From an uncultured Agathobacter sp. (GTDB lineage Bacteria; Bacillota; Clostridia; Lachnospirales; Lachnospiraceae), in the NCBI GenBank assembly GCA_934316545.1, contig CAKRDT010000003.1:47670-111669 (forward strand): a stretch of 64,000 bases of DNA, given 5' to 3'. The notes under the pieces were generated by a model. The model saw only the letters and a list, made by a program, of their open reading frames with translations, made no database searches and was not told the origin of the DNA. Positions 1,274 through 53,925 of this stretch are shown in pieces (the first letter of the stretch is position 1; every line of letters begins with the position of its first letter). The translations under genes were made by a program, and so were the position numbers.

Positions 1274-4200
1274 ATGAAAAAACGAGTATTGAGTATGTTC
1301 ACGGCGCTGGCCCTGTGCCTGACGCTCCTGCCCGCGCCCGCACGGGCAGAGGGGACGGAGGGCGGAGCCGCCCAAATCGGGAACACAGTGTATTCCACAC
1401 TGCCCGAGGCAGTGAACGCCGCACAAGACGGCGATACCATCAAGCTGCTGGCAGACTATGAGACTGCGGAAGGTTCTGGTGGGGAGGAAGAGAGTGGTCT
1501 CACTATCACAAAAAGTGTGACCCTTGATCTGAACGGCCATGGGATGGACGATTTCCGGGTGGCTCAGGTAAATGACGCGGTAGAAACTCTCCCGTCCGGC
1601 AATCTGACCGTTGAAGACACCAGCGCAGAAAAAACCGGAAAAGTCACTGGGATGATAGAACTTTTGGCCGGCAAGTTGACCATTAACGGTGGCACGATCG
1701 GTGATGGCAGAGATGGTGTCAGCATCGAAAACGGCAATCTGATCGTCAACGGCGGTACCATAGATTTTCTATACGGCAGCAACAGCGGTACGGTCACGAT
1801 CACCGGCGGCACCGTCAAAAACGCACGGTTTGGTGAAGGCTTCAACATCACCGTCACCGGCGGCAGCGGTCACACCGGTCTTTGGGATGTATCGGAAGGT
1901 ACATGGAACATTTCGGGCGGCGCGTTTGAAGGTGTAAAATTCCTAACCGGATCATCGGCGGAAAACCTGCACATCACCGGCGGCACGTTTGGGGAAATTA
2001 CCAGAAAAATTCTGCGGGATAGCATAGAAGCGCTTGCACCGATCTCCGGATTGCTGGCGGACGGCTATGCGTTCTATCAGAAAACCGACAGCGAGGAATA
2101 TGACCAGTGCGTAAAGCTTACTGATGCGATCGCCTACTTGGAAAATGTGCAGGTCAAGGGGCATACCCACAATTTTGTAAACGGCGTTTGCACCGTCTGT
2201 GACTACGCCTGCCTGCACACAAATATGAACGGTGACGGTTTCTGCTCCGACTGCAACACGCAAATGGTTGCCAAGGTGGAAGTCGGTGATACGGTTACCT
2301 ATTCCGCCGATTTCAAAGAGGCGATGAAGAATGCAACAAACGGCACAAAGATCACCTTGCTGGCGGATGTTTCGATTGCAGGAAGGACGGGCATTTCCGG
2401 CGACAATACAACGGTTACGCTGGATCTGAATGGACACAAGATCACAAGCGGATGGCTTGATGTTGGGGGCAAAGATACTAATGGGACTTATACGACCTGC
2501 ACCTTGAAGATCATCGGCAAAGGCAGTTATGAACCTCCGATGTATGGCGGCATAGTCACCGTTGATCTGAAAGCTACGCTGGATCTGAGCGAGTGGGAAG
2601 GCGGTACGATCAGCTCGATCAATATATCGGATAACTCGAACTATGAAGCAGAAACGCGGGAAGCCGCAGTAATCGTAGGACCGAAGGCGGGTACGATCGG
2701 AGAACTGTCGTTCGGGAATAATCAATTGCCTAAAATAACAAAGACCAAACTGAGCGGCGGCAGCTTTAATGAGATTTGGGCAGCTGATTTTGGGCCGGTC
2801 AAGCTTGGCGAACTGCTTGCAGATGGCTATGCGTACCAGAATGCAGATGGGTCGTATGTGAAGTACGAAACGACACTTCAGGGCGCGTCTATTTCCAATG
2901 TCAAGGTCGTAAAATGCCTGCATCCGAACATGAAACCGGATGCAACAACTGGCGTAGCAACATGCGAATACTGCGGCAAGAGCGGCAAATTCGTAGCCTC
3001 GGTGGATGGCAATCTCTATACCGATATGAATGGAGCCATCTCCTATTGGCTGGCAAACGGCGGCACATTGAAGCTGTATGCCGATTATACCGCTGCGGAT
3101 GGTACATGGAGCATTGGCAGCGGATTGCATACGATCAATCTGAACGGACATATGATGTCGGTTAAAGGTGACGGTGCATTCTTCAAGCCCACTAACAATA
3201 TGCATTTGACGGTTACCGATGGCACGGAGCTCGGTCAGATTACGAATATCCTCCTTGATGGGAGTCAGCGCGGGAGCTTTACGCTGGAGAGCGGTTATGT
3301 CGGCAATCTGGAGATGACCGGCGGCGCTGTCGTTGCGCTGAAGGGCGGCAGCGTTGACAATCTGGATGTACAGAACTGCTCTGCAAACACAAATCTTTCC
3401 ATCCAGGGCGGCAGCCTTGGCAAACTGAATATAGAGGATTGGGCTGATGGCATGCATGTTTCCGCCACGGGCGGCAGCCTTGGCGCGTATACACTGCCAA
3501 GCGGCAAGATTCTCGCGGATGTGCTGGATTACCAATATTACGCCGAAGGCACAAGCCTTGATAGACAGGTGGATACGGCACCTGGGGAAAAATTCGTTAT
3601 CAAGCGAGCCCCTTACGACTTTGGATCGACTTCTAAAGCGGCAGATGTTCCCATTAACGGCAGAATCCCCTTCATGGTTGACTTGCCCAGTGAAAATGTG
3701 GGCGTGTACGATGTGAAGTGGTATCGCAGAACGGATAGCGGCGCAGAACATATGACGGAGAATAAAGTGGCTGACGTGAATCTCAATGATAAGCTGGATG
3801 TATTCTGCGTGATTACAGGGTTGGATAGACCCAATAACGGCACTGTTCTCTGGCAGGTGGCAGTCAAGGGCTATACGATAAATGTCGTGCCTGCCAAGCT
3901 GAACGGCGACCAAACGGTCATTACGCAGAAGCCGAACACGGGCAACACCGGAAATCCGGCAGATAACCGCCTGGTGGTTACTCCGTTTTTCCCCAACGCG
4001 CTTAACGATGTAGAATACAAATTTGAGGTGACCTACAACGGACAGCCGCTGGAATTGGGTAAAGATTACACCATTAAAGATTCGAGCAATTTGGCAAAGA
4101 ATGCAGGAACGCACACGCTGACCATCGAGGGCATGGGCAATTATACGGGTGAAAAGTCGGTGACATGGACGCTTGAGCCGTATGAGCTTTCGGTTGAAAA

Positions 4201-6577
4201 CTTTTGTCATGCCCAGATTAACAAGACGTACGATGGTACAGATGCAGTGACTGACAGCACAAACGGAATCAGCGGGTTAAAGTCTTTTACTCTTGATTCT
4301 AAGAACCCGCGGAATCCTAAATTGTCGACTAGGGATACTTTTGATTTGGACGAGAGCGACTACCAATTGAGCAATATGAAATTCGACTCCGCAGAAGCCG
4401 GAGACAGAACCTTCACCGGCACAATGACGCTGACATCCGGCGGCAACTTTGTCTTTGCCGGTGGCAGCAGGGTGATGCAGATCGAATACGGCAGCAGCGG
4501 CGGCCGTCAGCTTGTTTTTATCGGCAGTGCGAGCATCACTGCCCCCGCGGCCAAGGCGCTGCAAGTCGCGAACAACCACGCGGCGACGTATACGGTTGAT
4601 CTGTCCGCGCTGCTGCCTGCGCTGGAGGCTCCCAGGGAGTACGGCGCGGTGACCTACGGCGCACCAGCTGTCAACTTGTCCAGCGACTATTACGCCGTTG
4701 GCACGGCAAGGATCGAAAACGGCAAGCTGATTTTGCCCATTCAGGCCGTGGATACAGACACGACAGGCAGCATTGGTTCTGTCGAGGTCAAGGTCTCTGC
4801 GACCAACTACCATGAATTCACCCTGACCATCAACGTCAATGCCACCAACAAGATCGTCCCCACCGGCGAGCCGACACTGAGCGCGAAGGCGCTGACCTAC
4901 GGTCAGGCGCTCTCCGCCATCAAGCTCTCCGGCACGATGAAGGATGACGGCAAGACCGTTCCCGGTATGTTCGCGTGGGTGGACGGCACGGTCAAGCCCG
5001 AAGTCGGCAGCGGGACGTATGAAGCGGCGTGGAAATTCACCCCCACTGACGGCGATACCTACGCCGAAGCCGACGGCACGGTGACGATCACCGTCAACAA
5101 GGCAACCCCAACCGGTACGCCGAAGTATACGGCGATTAGCAAGGAAGGACAGACCCTTGCGGATGCAAACTTAGCAGCTGCAGGCGAAAATAAAGAATCC
5201 TTATTCAAGTCTTTGGGAACAGGCATTCAAGGAATCGTAAAATGGGTCGAATCCGAGGACAAAACTACAGCGCTGAATCTGGGTACCAAGGTAGAGCAGG
5301 GCAAGGCCTACACATGGCTCTTTACGCCAAACGACTTGGCTAACTACAACAAGCTGACCGGCACGATCGTCCTTTGGGCGAAACCGACCTCCGGAGGCGG
5401 TGGCGGCGGTGGCGCAGCCCCGGCTCCGACACCGGCTGATGCGGATGTCATCACAGTCAAAGAAGACACGAAGGACAATACGACCTCCAAGCCGGGTGCG
5501 GAAAACGACACAACTACAATAACCAAGACAACCGTCAAGAATACGACGACCGAAACGACCAAGAACGAGCAGGGTCAGGATGTTTCCAAGACCACAGCCA
5601 GCGTTTCCAAAGACCTCGGTGACAAACTGCTCGATCAGGCGGTTTCCAATAAGTCCGATACGATCGAGATCACTGTGAAGTCCAGTGATGCGAATAACGG
5701 CAGCGGCGCAGGCAGCACAGGCGCGGCGGACAGCGTGAAAGCAACCGAAGTCGAGTTGCCAAAGGCGACCGTCAACGCGATCGCCAAGGACACGAACGCC
5801 GACCTTGTCATCAAGACCGACAACGGCGAAGTCGTCCTCGACAACAAGACCTTAGAAACGATTGCAGGCGCAGCCAAGGGTGACACCGTAACCATCGTGG
5901 TGGGCGAAAACACCCAGCTCAAGGAAACGCAGAAACCGGCGGAGAAGATCGTCGGCAAGAACGGCACGCTCTTCGAGCTTGTCGCGAAGATTGGCGAAAA
6001 ACACCTGCATCAATTTGAAGGCGGCAAGGCTTATGTGATTCTGCCGATGCCGCAAAAACTCAAGGGCAAAGACATCCTCGTGATCTACATCGACGACAAC
6101 GGCCTCTGCAAGATCCTGAACCACAGCGTAGTGAAGATCGGCGCAGAATATTACATTCGCTTCACGACGCCCCACTTCTCGACTTTCGCAGTCGTCGACA
6201 AAGACGAAGCAGAGGGGTTAATTAAAGAACAGAACGCCGCCCACGTCAAAGAACTGATGCAGAGCGCGAAGTTCAAAGTGACCACCACTAAGACGAGCAA
6301 GAAATCCGTCAAGGTACAGGTCGCAGCCAAGAGCAGCAAGACCATGATCTCCGACATCAAGTCGCTGGGCTACACGGTCAAGTACCAGTTCTATCGCTCG
6401 ACGAAGAAGACCGCAGGCTACAAGCTGCTCAAGACAAGCAGCAAGAACAGCTTTATCAGCACCAAGGGCACGAAGGGCAGAAAATATTACTACAAAGCCC
6501 GCGTGTTGGTCTATGACGGAAGCAAACTTGTGGCTAGGAGTGCACTCAAGCAGTGCAGCTATGGCGCAAGACGTTAA
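1274..6577 (+). CDS. Very large secreted surface protein with repeat, Ig-like and basic C-terminal domains
   Basis: The 1767-residue product begins with a signal peptide (MKKRVLSMFTALALCLTLLP, cleaved near ARAEG). A strong AGGAGG precedes the ATG. Residues ~30-760 contain three blocks of Gly/Thr/Ile-rich repeats ('TITGGT', 'LDLNGH', 'INGGTI') suggesting a right-handed beta-helix, separated by two short Cys/His segments with CxxC motifs (near 299-335 and 545-572). Residues ~880-1370 hold Ig-like/MBG-type modules ('YNGQPLELGKDYTI', 'TYDGTDAVT'). A poly-Gly/Pro linker lies near 1375, followed by a Thr/Lys-rich region and the basic C-terminal domain (~1665-1767). No LPXTG motif is seen. Probably an adhesin or matrix protein. 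The gene is richer in G+C than the core genes of the window, suggesting transfer or a separate lineage history. Confidence 0.75.
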   Translation: MKKRVLSMFTALALCLTLLPAPARAEGTEGGAAQIGNTVYSTLPEAVNAAQDGDTIKLLADYETAEGSGGEEESGLTITKSVTLDLNGHGMDDFRVAQVNDAVETLPSGNLTVEDTSAEKTGKVTGMIELLAGKLTINGGTIGDGRDGVSIENGNLIVNGGTIDFLYGSNSGTVTITGGTVKNARFGEGFNITVTGGSGHTGLWDVSEGTWNISGGAFEGVKFLTGSSAENLHITGGTFGEITRKILRDSIEALAPISGLLADGYAFYQKTDSEEYDQCVKLTDAIAYLENVQVKGHTHNFVNGVCTVCDYACLHTNMNGDGFCSDCNTQMVAKVEVGDTVTYSADFKEAMKNATNGTKITLLADVSIAGRTGISGDNTTVTLDLNGHKITSGWLDVGGKDTNGTYTTCTLKIIGKGSYEPPMYGGIVTVDLKATLDLSEWEGGTISSINISDNSNYEAETREAAVIVGPKAGTIGELSFGNNQLPKITKTKLSGGSFNEIWAADFGPVKLGELLADGYAYQNADGSYVKYETTLQGASISNVKVVKCLHPNMKPDATTGVATCEYCGKSGKFVASVDGNLYTDMNGAISYWLANGGTLKLYADYTAADGTWSIGSGLHTINLNGHMMSVKGDGAFFKPTNNMHLTVTDGTELGQITNILLDGSQRGSFTLESGYVGNLEMTGGAVVALKGGSVDNLDVQNCSANTNLSIQGGSLGKLNIEDWADGMHVSATGGSLGAYTLPSGKILADVLDYQYYAEGTSLDRQVDTAPGEKFVIKRAPYDFGSTSKAADVPINGRIPFMVDLPSENVGVYDVKWYRRTDSGAEHMTENKVADVNLNDKLDVFCVITGLDRPNNGTVLWQVAVKGYTINVVPAKLNGDQTVITQKPNTGNTGNPADNRLVVTPFFPNALNDVEYKFEVTYNGQPLELGKDYTIKDSSNLAKNAGTHTLTIEGMGNYTGEKSVTWTLEPYELSVENFCHAQINKTYDGTDAVTDSTNGISGLKSFTLDSKNPRNPKLSTRDTFDLDESDYQLSNMKFDSAEAGDRTFTGTMTLTSGGNFVFAGGSRVMQIEYGSSGGRQLVFIGSASITAPAAKALQVANNHAATYTVDLSALLPALEAPREYGAVTYGAPAVNLSSDYYAVGTARIENGKLILPIQAVDTDTTGSIGSVEVKVSATNYHEFTLTINVNATNKIVPTGEPTLSAKALTYGQALSAIKLSGTMKDDGKTVPGMFAWVDGTVKPEVGSGTYEAAWKFTPTDGDTYAEADGTVTITVNKATPTGTPKYTAISKEGQTLADANLAAAGENKESLFKSLGTGIQGIVKWVESEDKTTALNLGTKVEQGKAYTWLFTPNDLANYNKLTGTIVLWAKPTSGGGGGGGAAPAPTPADADVITVKEDTKDNTTSKPGAENDTTTITKTTVKNTTTETTKNEQGQDVSKTTASVSKDLGDKLLDQAVSNKSDTIEITVKSSDANNGSGAGSTGAADSVKATEVELPKATVNAIAKDTNADLVIKTDNGEVVLDNKTLETIAGAAKGDTVTIVVGENTQLKETQKPAEKIVGKNGTLFELVAKIGEKHLHQFEGGKAYVILPMPQKLKGKDILVIYIDDNGLCKILNHSVVKIGAEYYIRFTTPHFSTFAVVDKDEAEGLIKEQNAAHVKELMQSAKFKVTTTKTSKKSVKVQVAAKSSKTMISDIKSLGYTVKYQFYRSTKKTAGYKLLKTSSKNSFISTKGTKGRKYYYKARVLVYDGSKLVARSALKQCSYGARR
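6283..6502 (+). repeat. Second copy of a 220-bp exact direct repeat (first copy 1-220)
   Basis: Bases 1-220 and 6283-6502 are identical; the first difference is A at 221 versus G at 6503. Both copies lie in the 3' end of surface protein genes in the same orientation, 6.28 kb apart. Recombination between them would remove or duplicate one complete LuxR-plus-surface-protein unit. Confidence 0.9.
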
Positions 6578-7668: not shown

Positions 7669-7942
7669 GACCCGGTATATATGGGGAAGATAGCATATGG
7701 GCGCAGGCGTACAGAAAAGAAAACAGGAACCCGTAATGAAACTCATGTAGTGGAGCAATCAGAGTTCCCTGTTTATGAGGAAATTCATGAAGCAATTATT
7801 TCCGAGGAAGACTGGGATCTTGCACAGGAAAAGCGGTCAAAAAATAATTATAGGCGTGAAAAAATTCATGATCCGGAACATGCACATATTTTGTCCAGAA
7901 TATTAAAATGTCCTTGCTGTGGAAAAGGAATGTATGGAAATA
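7669..7942 (+). pseudogene. Large serine recombinase fragment
   Basis: The frame encodes the middle of a large serine recombinase: DPVYMGKIAYGRRRTEK, ETHVVEQSEFPVYEEIHEAI, ISEEDWDLAQEKRSK and a zinc-ribbon start LKCPCCGKGMYGN. The catalytic resolvase domain and the rest of the zinc ribbon and coiled coil are gone. Homology stops at about 7942 where DNA from a different gene begins in the opposite orientation. It is a relic of an integrated element. Confidence 0.75.
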
Positions 7943-7945
7943 TTG

Positions 7946-8063
7946 CCTGCCTCCATGCATCTACCAGCGGATGGAACTCTTCTTCAGTGAGCCCTATATC
8001 CAGAGCGCCCATCGCGTTCAAGGCTCTGACTGAATCTCCATAGCCGCGGGCAACAGCTCCGTG
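7946..8063 (-). pseudogene. Phage-type family A DNA polymerase fragment
   Basis: The minus strand reads ARGYGDSVRALNAMGALDIG then LTEEEFHPLVDAWRQA. This matches the conserved region of phage family A polymerases that normally reads GYGGSVGALxAMGALxMG and continues to the xxNPxIVxxWW segment. A stop lies immediately upstream of it and the serine recombinase relic abuts downstream, so about 38 codons survive. It points to a lost prophage or phage-derived island. Confidence 0.6.
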
Positions 8064-9334: not shown

Positions 9335-10650
9335 AATCATTGTGTAAAATTGCAATTCCTGTTACCTTGCAAAGCATGCTGCAGGCATCCTTTTCCATTG
9401 TAGACCAGATTATGATCGGACAGCTGGGAGAGACGAATATATCGGCAGTTGGATTATGTGGAAATTTTTCTCTCATTTTTTCCGTGGTAATCGGTGCAGT
9501 GAGTACGGTTGCGGGAATATTGATCGCACAGTTTATTGGTGCGGAAGATACAAAAGAGGCATGGTGCAGCTTTGATGTGAGTCTCATTTGCGGAATTATG
9601 ATATCGGCATTGTTTTTGCTGGCGGCAGGTGGCTTTTCAACACAGATTCTTGGACTTTACACGAAGGATATGGGAATTATAAGTGCGGGCTCAGTCTACT
9701 TTAGGATTGTTGCGTTTTCCTATATTCCAATGGCAGTCAGCAATATTTTATCCTCATGGCTGCGCTGCAGGGAGCATGCCACGATACCGTTTTTAGCAAG
9801 CTTCGGGGCAGTTGCTGTAAACACAGGCCTTAATTATCTGCTGATATTCGGAACCTTTGGATTTCCATGTATGGGAATAAAGGGAGCCGCGGTTGCAACA
9901 CTTATTTCGCAGTTGTTTAACCTCGTATTTATTGTTATCGGATTTATCGTATGCATCAGGAAGGATAAAGATAAACCGGTATGGTCATTGCATTTCAGTA
10001 AAATTACGATCAGGGATTATGTGATTATGATTATGCCGATTCTCATCAGTGAGTTTTTGTGGAGTCTCGGACAAAATGTGGAGTCTGCTGTCTATGGTCA
10101 TCTAGGCACGTCAAACCTGGCGGCGTACACACTTACCTGCCCGATACAGGGGCTTATCGTAGGAGCGCTTAGCGGATTGTCGGCGGCTGCCGGTGTGATG
10201 GTCGGCAAGAGGCTTGGCAGGAAAGAATACGATGAGGCTTACACAGAATCGAAGAAAATCATGTATGCAGGCTTGGCCGGAGCGGTAGCCGTATCGACAT
10301 TGCTCATTCTTCTGGCAGGAGTATATACCGGGCTGTATCGTGTAGATGGCAGCGTAAAAGAGCTTGGAAAGATACTGCTTATTGTATTTGCCCTGTATGC
10401 GCCAATCAAGGTGGAAAATATGATACTTGGCGGCGGTATCATAAGAAGCGGCGGTAATACCAAAATCATCATGGTGATTGATATTGTTGGCACATGGTGC
10501 ATCGGAATTCCACTGTGTCTGCTTGCTGCATATGTATTTAAGTGGGGCATTGTTGGTGTGTACACACTGCTTACTACAGAAGAAATATTCAGACTGGTTG
10601 TATCGCTTATTATTTTTAAGAGACGCAAGTGGATGATCAGTTTATCGTAG
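9319..10650 (+). CDS. MATE-family efflux transporter
   Basis: The 443-residue membrane protein has the 12-helix MATE layout with two related halves and the characteristic start (AIPVTLQSMLQASFSIVDQI, MIGQLGETNISAVGL). It would export cationic drugs or metabolites using an Na+ or H+ gradient. Its start lies within the end of the LacI-family gene (16-bp overlap), indicating translational coupling. The TAG stop is the first three bases of a family B palindrome relic (10648-), so that element has settled exactly at the gene end. A terminator follows at 10802. Confidence 0.85.
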   Translation: MSKFMKSLCKIAIPVTLQSMLQASFSIVDQIMIGQLGETNISAVGLCGNFSLIFSVVIGAVSTVAGILIAQFIGAEDTKEAWCSFDVSLICGIMISALFLLAAGGFSTQILGLYTKDMGIISAGSVYFRIVAFSYIPMAVSNILSSWLRCREHATIPFLASFGAVAVNTGLNYLLIFGTFGFPCMGIKGAAVATLISQLFNLVFIVIGFIVCIRKDKDKPVWSLHFSKITIRDYVIMIMPILISEFLWSLGQNVESAVYGHLGTSNLAAYTLTCPIQGLIVGALSGLSAAAGVMVGKRLGRKEYDEAYTESKKIMYAGLAGAVAVSTLLILLAGVYTGLYRVDGSVKELGKILLIVFALYAPIKVENMILGGGIIRSGGNTKIIMVIDIVGTWCIGIPLCLLAAYVFKWGIVGVYTLLTTEEIFRLVVSLIIFKRRKWMISLS

Positions 10651-10740
10651 GCGTTTGCGAAAATCTTATGGCGGTGCGTTTTGGTTTGACTGAAAACAAA
10701 TGCATTGACAGATATTCCGAAAAACGACTGCGCTATCACA
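10648..10740 (+). repeat. Decayed end of family B palindromic element
   Basis: Bases 10648-10692 align without gaps to the ends of the 549-bp palindrome at 53347-53895 (33 to 34 of 46 positions). The first 11 bases (TAGGCGTTTGC) match the complement of its right end exactly, and TGGCGG is conserved. Most differences are C-to-T or G-to-A transitions. No inverted partner is evident, so this is a half copy. Confidence 0.55.
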
Positions 10741-18699: not shown

Positions 18700-18799
18700 A
18701 CGTGACCCGGATCCGGTGCGAAGAACATCATGAGTGAAGGCTTCTATAGCCAGAATCGAAAATGCAATCATAGAAAATTAGGAGTTTCGCAATCGCTTA
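18700..18799 (-). repeat. Decayed copy of family B palindromic element
   Basis: Bases 18781-18799 (GGAGTTTCGCAATCGCTTA) are the exact reverse complement of 53347-53365, the left end of the 549-bp palindrome. GGCTTCTAT (18739-18747) and TGACCCGG (18703-18710) match its internal left-arm segments. This is an internally shortened copy. It lies in what could be read as an N-terminal extension of the lysozyme gene (from 18730), showing that extension is not coding. Confidence 0.6.
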
Positions 18800-34026: not shown

Positions 34027-34133
34027 CCGCAATGTTTTCTATACAATTTATATTTTACACATTTTAAGTATTTTAGCCGGATCACAACGGCATAAAATAA
34101 AAGGGATTATTAAGATGAAGGAGGATGTTTACT

Positions 34134-35603
34134 ATGATGAAGTATTTACAAAAACTTGGTAAAGCATTAATGCTTCCGGTAGCCTGCTTACCTATCTGTG
34201 GTATTTTAATGGGTATCGGATATCTTATGTGTCCTGCAACTATGCAGGGTGGTGACATTTCAGGCGTGATTCCTATGATCGGATTCTTCCTGGTTAAGGC
34301 CGGTGGAGCGCTGATCGACAATATGGCACTGTTATTCGTAATCGGTGTCGGTGTCGGTATGGCAGACGATCATGATGGTACAGCAGGTCTTGCAGCATTA
34401 GCTTCATGGCTGATGATTACAAACCTTCTTTCCACAGGAGTTGTTACAACTCTGATGCCTGCAATCGCAGACAATCAGGATAAGATGATCGCATTCGGCA
34501 AGATTGCAAACCCATTTATTGGTATTCTTGCTGGTATCATCGGTGCTACATGCTACAATAAGTTCAAGAGCACAAAGCTTCCGGATTGGCTGTCATTCTT
34601 TAGTGGCAAGCGTTGCGTAGCAATTATCGCCGGTGTTGTTTCCATTATTGTTTCCGCAATCCTGTTGTTCGTATGGCCGTTAATCTTCGGTTTACTGATC
34701 GCAGCTGGTAACGGAATCGCAGGAATGGGTGCTGTTGGAGCTGGTATCTACGCTTTCTTAAACAGATTACTTATTCCAACCGGATTACATCATGCATTAA
34801 ACAACGTATTCTGGTTCGATACAATTGGTCTTGGTGACCTTACAAACTTCTGGGGAGGAAAGACATCAGCTGATGTTACCTGGGATCTTGGAATGTATAT
34901 GTCAGGATTCTTCCCATGTATGATGTTTGGTATTCCTGGTGCTGCACTTGCTATGATCAAGTCAGCAAAGAGCAACAAGAAGAAAGTTGCAATCGGTCTT
35001 TTAAGCTCCGCAGCATTATGTGCTTTCATCTGCGGTGTTACTGAGCCGTTCGAGTTTGGATTTATGTTCCTTGCTCCAGGACTGTACTTAGTATACGCAT
35101 TACTTTATGGTATCTTTACAGTTATCACAACACTCGTTGGTTTCCGTGCAGGATTCAGCTTCTCAGCCGGAGCAACAGACTTGTTCTTCTCAGCTTCCCT
35201 TCCGGCAGCTAAGAACACTTGGATGATCATTCCTCTCGGAATCGCAGCCTTCATTGTATTCTACGTAGTATTCCGTTTCATGATCGTTAAATTCGATCTG
35301 AAGACACCTGGTAGAGAAGATGATGATGTAGATGAGACAAAAGTAGAGTTAGCAAACAATGATTACACAGCTATCGCTGCAACAATCTTAGAGGGCCTTG
35401 GTGGCAAGGACAATGTAGTAAGCATTGATAACTGCATCACAAGACTTCGTCTCGAAGTTAAGGACAACACAGTCGTAGATGAGAAGAAGATTAAATCTGC
35501 AGGCGTTGCAGGTGTTGTCAGACCTGGCAAGACAAGTGTTCAGGTTATCATCGGAACGAAAGTTCAGTTCGTGGCAGACGAGTTCAAGAAGTTGTGCCGG
35601 TAA
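34134..35603 (+). CDS. nagE: PTS EIICB permease, N-acetylglucosamine (NagE)-like
   Basis: 489 residues from an ATG 9 bases after AAGGAGG (34118-34124); the ATG at 34125 touches that site and is unlikely. An EIIC membrane domain (~1-380) with PTGLHHALNNVFWFDTIGLG and GVTEPFEFGFMFLAP is followed by a short linker and an EIIB domain with the phosphorylated Cys in IDNCITRLRLEV. The EIIC signature resembles GlcNAc permeases more than glucose ones; specificity is inferred. There is no fused EIIA, which is supplied by 33544-34026. The gene uses T-ended preferred codons more than its neighbours, typical for a highly expressed gene. Confidence 0.85.
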   Translation: MMKYLQKLGKALMLPVACLPICGILMGIGYLMCPATMQGGDISGVIPMIGFFLVKAGGALIDNMALLFVIGVGVGMADDHDGTAGLAALASWLMITNLLSTGVVTTLMPAIADNQDKMIAFGKIANPFIGILAGIIGATCYNKFKSTKLPDWLSFFSGKRCVAIIAGVVSIIVSAILLFVWPLIFGLLIAAGNGIAGMGAVGAGIYAFLNRLLIPTGLHHALNNVFWFDTIGLGDLTNFWGGKTSADVTWDLGMYMSGFFPCMMFGIPGAALAMIKSAKSNKKKVAIGLLSSAALCAFICGVTEPFEFGFMFLAPGLYLVYALLYGIFTVITTLVGFRAGFSFSAGATDLFFSASLPAAKNTWMIIPLGIAAFIVFYVVFRFMIVKFDLKTPGREDDDVDETKVELANNDYTAIAATILEGLGGKDNVVSIDNCITRLRLEVKDNTVVDEKKIKSAGVAGVVRPGKTSVQVIIGTKVQFVADEFKKLCR

Positions 35604-35633
35604 TTTAGAAAATTAGTATAATCCCTTTCTTAG

Positions 35634-35665
35634 AGGCGGCTTTGCGTAATGCGGAGCCGCCTTTA
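35634..35665 (+). terminator. Terminator after the EIICB gene
   Basis: AGGCGGCT (35634-35641) pairs with AGCCGCCT (35655-35662), followed by a short T-run. Confidence 0.7.
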
Positions 35666-35683
35666 ATGATGAATCTGGGGGTG

Positions 35684-36025
35684 CCGTGATCAGATAGGGT
35701 TTCTCTAAAACGGACGATACCGGATTCATAAGATAAGATTCGAAAATTAGCAGTAAGTTTTTTGTCAGACGGACTTTGAACGATACCGACTTTCTCTCAG
35801 CTTTTTCTGCGAATTAACTCCTGCAACGATTTTTGATAGTTTTTCATCACATGAAACAATCATGCAATGATCCGAAACAATGGAACGCAGGAGCAGTCGC
35901 AGAAAAGAGCTTCGATAAAGTGTATCATTCAAAATCCTGTTGGTTGAATGCGTTTGCTGCTAATTTTCTTTTTTATATTTTGGCATCCGGTATCTGTGGA
36001 TTGGAAATAACCTATCTGATACACG
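35684..36025. repeat. Family A palindromic element, copy 1
   Basis: This 342-bp non-coding stretch is an imperfect palindrome about 35855: CGTGATCAGATAGG (35685-) faces CCTATCTGATACACG (36011-36025), GATACCGGAT (35716-) faces ATCCGGTATC (35985-35994), GAAAATTAGCAG (35742-) faces CTGCTAATTTTC (35957-35968). Its core 35770-35941 is the reverse complement of 36524-36695 in copy 2 with 170 of 172 positions identical. I see no gene in it; the 85-codon frame at 35833 crosses both the element and the spacer and resembles nothing. It starts 20 bp after the EIICB terminator. Nature unknown: a MITE-like element or large hairpin RNA are possibilities. Confidence 0.8.
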
Positions 36026-36415
36026 CTAAAATTTTGCTAAGTGGGGCGCTACACGCAAATATTCTCCCCTACATCCTCAATGCTATCTGAAGATAACATG
36101 CTACTTGTATTTTTTTGACTTAAGTTGTACTTGACCACAACAATTTTGGGTATACAGCAGAATTTTCGCTGCCTATACCCTTTTCACTGTAGTTCGATAC
36201 TTTTTTGTATTTGAGGAAAGATCATGACCTACAGGAGAAAAATGAGATCCAGGTCATGGAGGAACAGGGAAGACCATGACCTATAGGATAGAAGTAGAAA
36301 CCGGATCAGGAGATTCTGCTTGTTCGGAATTAATTTATATAAATAAATCACGCGCGGCGAAATTTTACATTTATCTGTAAAATAACACCGCGCGTCATTT
36401 TTCCTTATTTACTAT
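36026..36415. other. Spacer between family A copies: two hairpins and short repeats, no gene
   Basis: No supported coding region. A hairpin at 36148-36184 (GGGTATA with TATACCC, inner CAGC with GCTG, then TTTT) and one at 36350-36400 (ACGCGCGG with CCGCGCGT, inner ATTTTACA with TGTAAAAT, then T-rich) look like intrinsic terminators. Between them CATGACCT occurs at 36223-36230 and 36275-36282, with its complement AGGTCATG at 36251-36258. A small transcript of about 200 nt between the hairpins is possible, but no good promoter was found. Confidence 0.6.
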
Positions 36416-36807
36416 GAGGCAAATTTTTGTCGTGCATCAGATATGAATTTCTCAAATGCACAGATACCGGATTCACTAGGGGATTCAATAGGTAGAAAAA
36501 AATTAGCAGTAGTTTTCTATATTAACAGGATTTTGAATGATACACTTTATCGAAGCTCTTTTCTGCGACTGCTCCTGCGTTCCATTGTTTCGGATAATTG
36601 CATGATTGTTTCATGTGATGAAAAACTATCCAAAATCGTTGCAGGAGTTAATTCGCAGAAAAAGCTGAGAGAAAGTCGGTATCGTTCAAAGTCCGTTGAT
36701 TTTATAATAACTACTGCTAATTTTCGAAGCTTATATTATGAATCCGGTATTGTCCGTTTTAGAGAATCAAATCTGATCACGACAAACCCGAATTTGGGAT
36801 TTGCCTC
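36416..36807. repeat. Family A palindromic element, copy 2 (inverted)
   Basis: An imperfect palindrome centred near 36606-36611 with ends GAGGC (36416-36420) and GCCTC (36803-36807), and CGTGCATCAGAT (36431-) facing ATCTGATCACG (36771-36781). It is the inverted counterpart of copy 1 with a near-perfect core. Its right end touches the last base before the stop codon of the CaCA exchanger gene on the minus strand, so it forms the 3' flank of that gene and could end its transcript. The 127-codon plus-strand frame at 36443 runs across it and into the exchanger gene and is considered non-coding. Confidence 0.8.
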
Positions 36808-37725
36808 TTACCTTGCGATAATGTAGATACTGTATGCAAGGTAACATAGGATGCAAAGGAGACCTTCCCGGCGGGAGGTTTCGCGGTGCGTTTTTGCCAG
36901 AACAAGAATCAGGGCGCATACGGCAATCAGAATTGCAGTATCAATAAGCAGTTCCGGAGCTGCGTTGATCGGAGTAAGTACGGAAGCGGCGCCAAGGATG
37001 AACATGATATTAAAAATGCAGGATCCGACAGCGTTGCCCAAAGCGATACCGGAATCTCCCTTTTTTGCTGCGACAATTGAGGTCATAAGCTCGGGAAGAG
37101 ATGTGCCGATTGCTACAATGGTAAGGCCGACCAAGGTATCGCTCATACCAAGTGAGCGCGCAATCTGACTTGCATTGTTGACAACAAGATTGCCACCCAG
37201 AATGATTGCAGCCAATCCGCCAATGACCGAAAGAATGCTTCGGGGAATGCTGAGCTGCTTGAGAGGTTCCGTGTCAGTACGATCACGGATGGCGCTGCGG
37301 ATTATAATATAAAGATAGGCAGCCATGCTGACAAGAAGAATAACACCCTCTATACGGCTGAGTTTTCCGTCCAGCAGGAGAAGAAGCAGTATAACGGATA
37401 CTGCAATATTCCACCATAAATCACGATGCAGCATATCTTTGTGAGTGGTGATCGGTCGAAGCAGAGCAGATACGCCGATGACCATAAGAAGATTAAAAAT
37501 ATTTGATCCAACGATGTTGCCGAGGGATATGTCACTGTTTCCGGCAAGTCCTGCGGTAATCGAGACGGCAGCCTCGGGTGCGCTGGTTCCCATCGCGACA
37601 ATGGTAAGTCCGATCACGATGGACGGAACCCGCAGGATCCCGGCAATCGAAGAAGAACCATCCACGAAAAAATCCGCGCCTTTGAGAAGAAGAACAAAAC
37701 CGACAAGTAGTAATAAATACATCAT
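36808..37725 (-). CDS. CaCA-family cation exchanger under a manganese riboswitch
   Basis: 305 residues, ten predicted membrane helices in two inverted halves, each with the CaCA alpha-repeat motif: GTSAPE (46-51) and GTSLPE (207-212), plus GNIVGSNIFN and GNAVGSCIFN. Bacterial members (YrbG-like) exchange Na+ or H+ for Ca2+. The leader carries a yybP-ykoY-type Mn2+ riboswitch, which suggests that this copy exports manganese or that its expression responds to it. The minus-strand ATG follows GGAGG. Confidence 0.85.
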   Translation of the reverse strand: MMYLLLLVGFVLLLKGADFFVDGSSSIAGILRVPSIVIGLTIVAMGTSAPEAAVSITAGLAGNSDISLGNIVGSNIFNLLMVIGVSALLRPITTHKDMLHRDLWWNIAVSVILLLLLLDGKLSRIEGVILLVSMAAYLYIIIRSAIRDRTDTEPLKQLSIPRSILSVIGGLAAIILGGNLVVNNASQIARSLGMSDTLVGLTIVAIGTSLPELMTSIVAAKKGDSGIALGNAVGSCIFNIMFILGAASVLTPINAAPELLIDTAILIAVCALILVLAKTHRETSRREGLLCILCYLAYSIYIIAR

Positions 37726-53311: not shown

Positions 53312-53330
53312 CATGCAGATTTAGTATAAT
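53303..53330 (+). promoter_or_regulatory. Possible ruvAB promoter upstream of the palindrome
   Basis: TTTGAA (53303-53308), 16-bp spacer, TATAAT (53325-53330). If used, the 549-bp palindrome would form most of the ruvAB leader. Confidence 0.45.
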
Positions 53331-53346
53331 GACAATTATGGCAGGT

Positions 53347-53895
53347 TAAGCGATTGCGAAACTCCTGTGGCGGCGTGTTCCGGCTGGGCTGACCCGGTGG
53401 CGGGCTTCTATGCTGAACACGATTTTAGACAAAATCATTGAATTTGCGAAAATCTCTGCTGGGCTCAATTTTTATGTCCGAGCAACGCTTCGACTGTGGC
53501 ACTCCAAGTGTCCGTCTGACACAGATGTGCTCAAAATTTCTAGTCTGCCTAAGAGGGGCACTTTGTGAATTTTGATTGTGCCCACTCTCGGTTAATGTCT
53601 CCCCTCATAGAATTGTGGAGAGCCATTAAGTTATGAGGTCGCAAACACGACCCGTGGGCACTCGTTCACAAAGGTGCCCCACGTAAGGCAGACACGAAAT
53701 CCATCGGACACATTCTGTGTTCAGACGAACATTCGGAGCGCCACTGTCTAAGCTTGAGCGGACAAAAATCATAGAAAGAGCCCAGCGGACATTTTCAGCA
53801 AATTCTTGATTTGGGATAACTAGTGTCAGCGTAGAAGCCCGCCACCGGTTCAGCCCAGCCGGAGCATGCCGCCACAGGAGTTTTGCAAACGCCTA
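53347..53895. repeat. Family B palindromic element, full copy
   Basis: 549 bp folding about position 53621. The terminal 64 bases (53347-53410) match the reverse complement of 53832-53895 at 58 positions; complementarity continues inward (for example TCTGCCT near 53545 with AGGCAGAC near 53687, and CCTCATA at 53603 with TATGAGG at 53632). No open frame of note occurs. Relics with the same ends lie at 10648 and 18700-18799, so it is a repeat family. It separates the carboxypeptidase gene from ruvA. As RNA it would be a hairpin of over 250 interrupted base pairs; whether it is a mobile element, a structured RNA or both is unknown. Confidence 0.8.
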
Positions 53896-53925
53896 AAATA
53901 CAAAAGAACTAAGAGGAGATTATTC

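Follow-up and report, generated by a model that had tools for sequence, protein, structure and literature searches.

The locus studied here lies in a window of 64,000 nucleotides (the whole stretch of DNA that was analysed) and consists of two convergent genes with a pair of large non-coding palindromes, A1 and A2, between them. Gene starts and neighbours, and thus the distances to stop and start codons given below, were obtained with a crude ORF script and not with a gene caller. The features are the following.

34125..35603, + strand: gene for a PTS transporter subunit IIBC of the GlcNAc (N-acetylglucosamine) type (TIGR01998)
35672..36045, + strand: A1, an imperfect non-coding palindrome of about 374 bp, outer limits approximate
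35717..35753, + strand: left arm motif of A1, ATACCGGATKC...AAATTAGCAG
35769..35941, + strand: core of A1, identical to the A2 core at 171 of 173 positions
35957..35993, - strand: right arm motif of A1
36046..36409, no strand: spacer between A1 and A2, without an ORF of 60 aa wholly inside
36410..36806, - strand: A2, an inverted copy of A1 of about 397 bp, outer limits approximate
36464..36509, + strand: left arm motif of A2
36524..36696, - strand: core of A2, the counterpart of the A1 core
36714..36750, - strand: right arm motif of A2
36808..37725, - strand: calcium/sodium antiporter gene, convergent with the PTS gene (TIGR00367)

When A2 is inverted, the two copies are 84.6% identical over 371 columns (35682-36037 against 36419-36784; searching the window gives E 6e-112), and each copy is self-complementary. 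The original prediction, which had described two large non-coding palindromes in inverted orientation with similarity extending beyond a shared core, is borne out on both points. It had given this core as 170 identical bases out of 172, which was right: we count two mismatches, at 35834 and 35869, in 173 aligned bases, the inverted core arms (35769-35941 and 36524-36696) being 99% complementary over 173 nt. Outside the core, the left arms of A1 and A2 are identical at 73 of 82 positions (9 differences, 4 gap events) and the right arms at 75 of 90 (15 differences, 10 gap events), with one extra gap event at the core edge. Identity is thus 98.8% in the core and 83-89% in the arms (Fisher p 2.5e-6), a contrast drawn from two copies only. 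A core far more alike than its arms suits a recent duplication or conversion. We also considered that a single template-switch event had produced both core mismatches. This idea was dropped: the two positions lie within the same 5-bp stem of A2 (36592-36596 with 36627-36631) but are not partners.

The palindromic nature of each copy is seen in several ways. Aligned with its reverse complement, A2 is 68.6% identical over 395 columns (E 3e-19), and global self-alignment yields Watson-Crick pairs at 124 of 158 positions for A1 and 147 of 175 for A2. Folded as DNA, A1 reaches -66 kcal/mol (z -7.7) and, folded as RNA, A2 reaches -155 kcal/mol (z -12.6), none of 100 shuffles being as good in either case. 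The motif ATACCGGATKC-N-AAATTAGCAG is present in all four A arms, against a mean of 0.00 in 100 shuffles of the window, and was derived from the same four arms in which it was counted. The arms of A are not copy-specific, the identity between left and right arms being 0.73 within A1 and 0.74 within A2, against 0.87 between the A1 left and A2 right arms and 0.69 between the A1 right and A2 left arms. The boundaries of A are approximate. The geometry of the pair is confirmed as real and lies far beyond chance.

Inverted near-identity is a known form of assembly artefact, and the A pair could have arisen as a fold-back or a misjoined inverted duplicate. That such artefacts are possible is suggested by MT839852, a 4.2-kb human faecal contig that matches another palindrome of the window (B, described below) at 73.9%: it starts inside its palindrome, may be an amplification artefact and was used in alignments only. 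However, 24 substitutions and 14 gap events separate the arms of A1 from those of A2, for 2 substitutions in the core, whereas a simple fold-back would be uniformly identical. This contrast between arms and core counts against an artefact, which we regard as highly improbable.

One could also assume that A is a resident bidirectional terminator, or an mRNA 3' end structure, which was duplicated in place. The convergence of the flanking genes fits such a role, as does the stop codon of the antiporter gene, located 2 bp from the end of A2. However, A far exceeds the size of a terminator, palindrome B, which has the same build, precedes a start codon, and a scan of 35580-36830 gave no terminator-like site (mean of 0.7 in shuffles). 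Two short hairpins with weak T runs, at 35633-35665 just outside A1 and at 36148-36182 in the spacer, look terminator-like by eye; they were unscored by the scan and both lie outside A. A terminator origin is therefore quite improbable. The spacer further contains a 56-bp hairpin (36345-36400) and, at 36214-36308, a degenerate 43-nt direct repeat (72%) with CATGACCT units; in this same region, a 20-codon ORF preceded by a ribosome-binding-like GAGGAAAG can be made out by eye. Recombination between the two copies might invert this spacer, as the original prediction had suggested.

The original prediction had recognised no gene, transposase or known RNA family in the pair, and our scans agree with it. 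Neither Pfam nor NCBIfam recognises the 127-aa ORF that runs across A2, no transposase ORF was found within the A element, and Pfam detected no transposase among the 51 window ORFs scanned. Covariance models of Rfam, run on the whole window, gave no family at gathering score; with lax thresholds, 11 matches were obtained (best E 0.52), all of them well under that score. Around A, no target-site duplication was seen by eye, and comparing the synteny of the flanking genes in five loci (L006-L009 and L036) revealed no empty site. Elsewhere in the window, a 120-aa ORF at 7681-8043 carries a partial serine-type Recombinase domain (PF07508, E 4.5e-7) and is perhaps a remnant of a mobile element. A 289-nt direct repeat is also present at 1-289 and 6283-6571 (94% identical), its second copy lying at the 3' end of the ORF 1274-6577.

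Relatives of A were sought in several collections. Plasmids and phages gave no match. The search of related family genomes, which the original prediction had proposed, was carried out with A2 and produced only matches of 23-34 nt, in 2 of 397 and 3 of 345 genomes, judged to be due to chance after inspection. These two sets overlap, and the two best candidates were scored per genome, so that weak relatives of A may be missed. We take the family searched to be Lachnospiraceae, because the first centre genome, G001, comes from an Anaerocolumna record. In genome contigs, the pattern of the A arm motif had five matches, none of them a large palindrome and all judged to be chance. Beyond these, the sequence most similar to A is in L005, over 53 columns with an E of 9e-5, and this similarity includes letters selected by the pattern. 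In viral contigs, the arm pattern gave no match, the core pattern eight and two core words one and none, respectively, and around these nine matches we found neither a 60-bp palindrome nor a similarity to A longer than 21 nt. At the search sensitivity used, none of these collections (plasmids, phages, family genomes, genome contigs and viral contigs) yielded a convincing relative of A, and the known copies of A are the two that stand side by side in the window.

The window contains one other palindrome of the size of A, which brings its total to three.

53346..53896, + strand: B, a second giant palindrome of 551 bp, of a family distinct from A, 30 bp upstream of the ruvA start

The surroundings of B included, 53320-53915 reaches -342 kcal/mol when folded as RNA (z -23). 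Two of the 397 family genomes match B, namely G294, over 28 nt only, and G067, at two places. B-like copies are found at ten places of G067, including the copy used as query, several of them cut by contig ends; the five complete ones are palindromes of about 510-530 bp. Within the genus of G067, the B family was found in one of five genomes and in none of the other four. No match to B was obtained in plasmids, and viral contigs gave a single 20-nt match within a 782-aa ORF in one search and nothing in a second one. In the window itself, sequences of the B ends recur at 18780-18799 (20 nt exact) and at 10648-10693, where 46 nt match at 74%, of which 27 nt at 85%.

Giant palindromes are numerous in G067. 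In a sample of 772 kb, which includes contigs picked for their B matches, 16 palindromes of at least 200 bp were counted: five belong to family B, ten to a superfamily C (one of these being a Y1 transposase element) and one stands alone. The 597 kb of this genome not chosen for B matches hold eight, the transposase element included. As controls, no palindrome of at least 200 bp was found in 136 kb from 30 family loci, fetched around the PTS gene and thus not a random sample, and G398 and G114, which by DNA identity at the PTS locus (78 and 74%) are the closest to the window among the relatives that we found, gave none of at least 60 bp in 141 kb. Searched with the region of a C copy, G067 has matches at 16 places, counting the query itself and some incomplete ones, and a C element was found in one of the 397 family genomes, which is G067 itself. 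B and C share a signature, B being 60% identical to one C copy over 275 positions (E 2e-6). The sequence of A resembles neither B nor C, its only match being 14 nt in one C copy (E 0.20). Together with the palindromes of G067, B makes A part of a class and not a local oddity.

Some observations concern the surroundings of the palindromes in G067. According to the crude ORF calls, those at L112:11513-12018, L111:3384-4093 and L138:10199-10777 start at a stop codon or at most 10 bp from it, and for two of them the next start codon follows about 30 bp after their end. The C copy arms in L152-L156 have by eye the look of inward-facing terminators, with a hairpin followed by a T-rich stretch. An empty site was sought for two C copies. 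The L112 copy gave no match in the other four genomes of the genus. For the L138 copy, the right flank matches all four genus mates and reaches the element edge in two of them; the left flank was not found in them, so no clean empty site is available.

We then compared the arms within and between copies of B and C. For C, 11 of the 16 places, those with a near-complete core, were used and truncated copies were left out. Identity is on average 0.86 between the two arms of a copy, 0.60 between left arms of different copies and 0.86 between cores, and the left arm is best matched by its own right arm in 8 of the 11 copies (permutation p 5e-5, the smallest value attainable with 20,000 shuffles). 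For B, the comparison took the window copy and the five complete copies from the ten places of G067, with truncated copies and MT839852 left out and L057 trimmed by 13 nt at each end. Identity is 0.88-0.97 within copies, 0.67 between copies and 0.81 for the cores, and each of the six left arms has its own right arm as best match. Being alike within a copy and unlike between copies, the arms of B and C thus evolve rapidly, yet in concert.

If RNA pairing were the cause of this concerted change, G.T mismatches should exceed A.C mismatches on the transcribed strand. Over 18 giant palindromes (A1, A2, B and 15 of the 16 of G067, the L073:18346 transposase element being left out), we counted 111 G.T for 98 A.C (heterogeneity p 0.17), in a set where copies of the same family are not independent and orientation is arbitrary for most. 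There is thus no G.T excess over the 18 palindromes that would indicate selection at the RNA level. This balance speaks for a pairing that would be kept at the DNA level in the palindrome class, and it would fit a DNA-level copying such as the template switching at inverted repeats described in PMC8794818 and PMC8604942. The six B copies taken in a single orientation gave 42 G.T for 30 A.C, and this result was counted against the DNA-level reading. As to the near-identity of the A cores, the original prediction had proposed recent duplication, conversion or selection on structure; the first two are suited by the contrast between core and arms, and selection on RNA structure is not supported so far by the mismatch counts.

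These counts bear on the possibility that the A palindromes encode a structured non-coding RNA in two copies, with transcription running outward from the spacer (minus strand for A1, plus strand for A2). Both copies fold strongly, the energies of the cores are lower on the outward strand (-75.0 and -74.1 against -58.1 and -60.9), and A2 displays 7 G.T and 0 A.C on the plus strand. A1, however, has 8 G.T and 6 A.C on the plus strand and, in the orientation of A2 (A2 being inverted), 6 G.T and 8 A.C; these numbers are too small for A to be read alone. The balance over the 18 palindromes, the lack of an Rfam family for A and the promoter-like sites, of which the scan of 35580-36830 gave four for a mean of 3.6 in shuffles and hence no excess, also argue against an RNA. 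We consider this explanation unlikely.

One element of superfamily C in G067 encodes a transposase.

L073:18346-19472, 1.13 kb: Y1 (RAYT-like) transposase element of G067, with 110-nt inverted ends (PF01797, E 4e-16)

Short GGGAC repeats make up its 110-nt ends. The L138 copy of C terminates in a short repeat that occurs at many places in G067, G399 and G373 and matches the end of the Y1 element at 96% (G067:C7:19449-19475). The end-repeat motif of C has 30 occurrences in the 772 kb of G067 and 3 in 278 kb from other loci of the family. Among the 11 C copies with a near-complete core, six are bounded on both sides by this motif within 300 nt and five are not; none of five B copies is bounded by it within 200 nt, and the motif is absent from the window. 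PF01797 is present in four of the five genomes of the genus, in one of them with internal stop codons, and a tblastn search of the window with the Y1 transposase of G067 gave nothing better than E 0.16. Since some C copies are bounded by an end repeat like that of the Y1 element, a Y1 enzyme would be a plausible mobiliser for part of C, and a more conjectural one for B and A.

The Y1 element has a length and a plan similar to those of the A locus taken as a whole. On this basis, A1, the spacer and A2 could form one composite inverted-repeat element of about 1.13 kb, which would be related to an element such as the Y1 one but be decayed or non-autonomous, an idea with which the 79% complementarity between the outer ends of the A pair agrees. 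However, the Y1 transposase is unmatched in the spacer, its two weak matches being located elsewhere, and the spacer contains no ORF of 60 aa wholly inside it. Moreover, no end sequence is common to the two, and each A copy is a full palindrome, unlike the arms of the Y1 element. We therefore hold a composite element to be distinctly unlikely.

A parallel can be drawn with repeats known from other bacteria. REP, BIME and REPIN sequences and the RAYT-TIRtron elements (PMC3733652; see also PMC3116915) resemble A, B and C in that they are non-coding extragenic palindromes, often in inverted pairs and patchy among relatives. For C, the likeness includes the bounding repeat of 6 of the 11 copies and the Y1 element with similar ends, in which GGGGACAG fits by eye the GGGGWSAS motif of TIRtron ends given in PMC3733652. 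However, REPs measure 20-40 bp according to that same paper and the giant palindromes 350-700 bp, and in the window the C end motif is absent and the Y1 transposase of G067 unmatched. PMC3733652 contains none of the words 'clostridi', 'firmicutes' or 'lachno'. Bacterial MITEs (RUP, NEMIS, Bcr1, ERIC and Nezha) are likewise non-coding, foldable, intergenic and without a transposase of their own; in PMC3733652 and PMC2229807 they are 70-300 bp long with terminal repeats of 15-30 bp, whereas the giant palindromes are palindromic throughout, with arms that vary between copies and a core that is conserved.

With regard to mechanism, quasipalindrome correction or template switching, as presented in PMC8794818 and PMC8604942, homogenises the arms of inverted repeats at the DNA level without selection on RNA, as the arms of B and C suggest, and may invert spacers. 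PMC8604942 concerns short inverted repeats, and arms of 60-90 bp in elements of 500 bp would be a much larger case; A, for its part, differs from such correction by its lack of arm matching within a copy. In the literature searched, where coverage of subscription journals is poor and absence from print is not implied, we found no account of such large palindromes dispersed in such genomes.

Altogether, we favour as the probable explanation, with ample room for doubt, that a single large non-coding palindromic repeat is present here in two inverted copies, A1 and A2, and comes from a class of large non-autonomous repeats, with pairing at the DNA level and a homogenised core. A has the build of B and C, since it is a full-length imperfect palindrome of the same size range (about 0.35-0.7 kb), intergenic and without a recognisable gene; its core is also more conserved than its arms, as judged from two copies. 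Because it shares this build but has neither sequence similarity to B or C nor copy-specific arms, we file A as a putative orphan family of the B/C-like giant palindrome class, by architecture only. A itself would be a non-autonomous mobile repeat. In the class, the pairing of the arms would be kept by DNA-level copying, either through hairpin or template-switch repair or through conversion, and not by an RNA function. The A cores would owe their near-identity to a recent duplication or to conversion between A1 and A2. A further and weaker assumption would be that a transposase acts in trans, perhaps of the Y1/RAYT type as for part of family C.

A bolder hypothesis would be that A, B and C represent a distinct kind of mobile DNA in bacteria, one maintained as a hairpin, with a core that spreads and arms that are rewritten at each site by self-templated copying. 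The arms would then diverge quickly between copies, stay matched within a copy and often grow to the edges of neighbouring genes. We think it rather unlikely.

In bacteria, instability would be expected of palindromes as large as A, B and C. Nevertheless, G067, a genome of about 2 Mb, carries such sequences at some 30 places, of which a part are incomplete or truncated by contig ends. Concerted, copy-specific arms devoid of an RNA-strand signature would offer a natural test of DNA-level hairpin copying. Such copying can mimic the compensatory changes that are usually taken as proof of an RNA structure. A warning would follow for elements of this kind, in which covariation should not be equated with evidence of a functional RNA.
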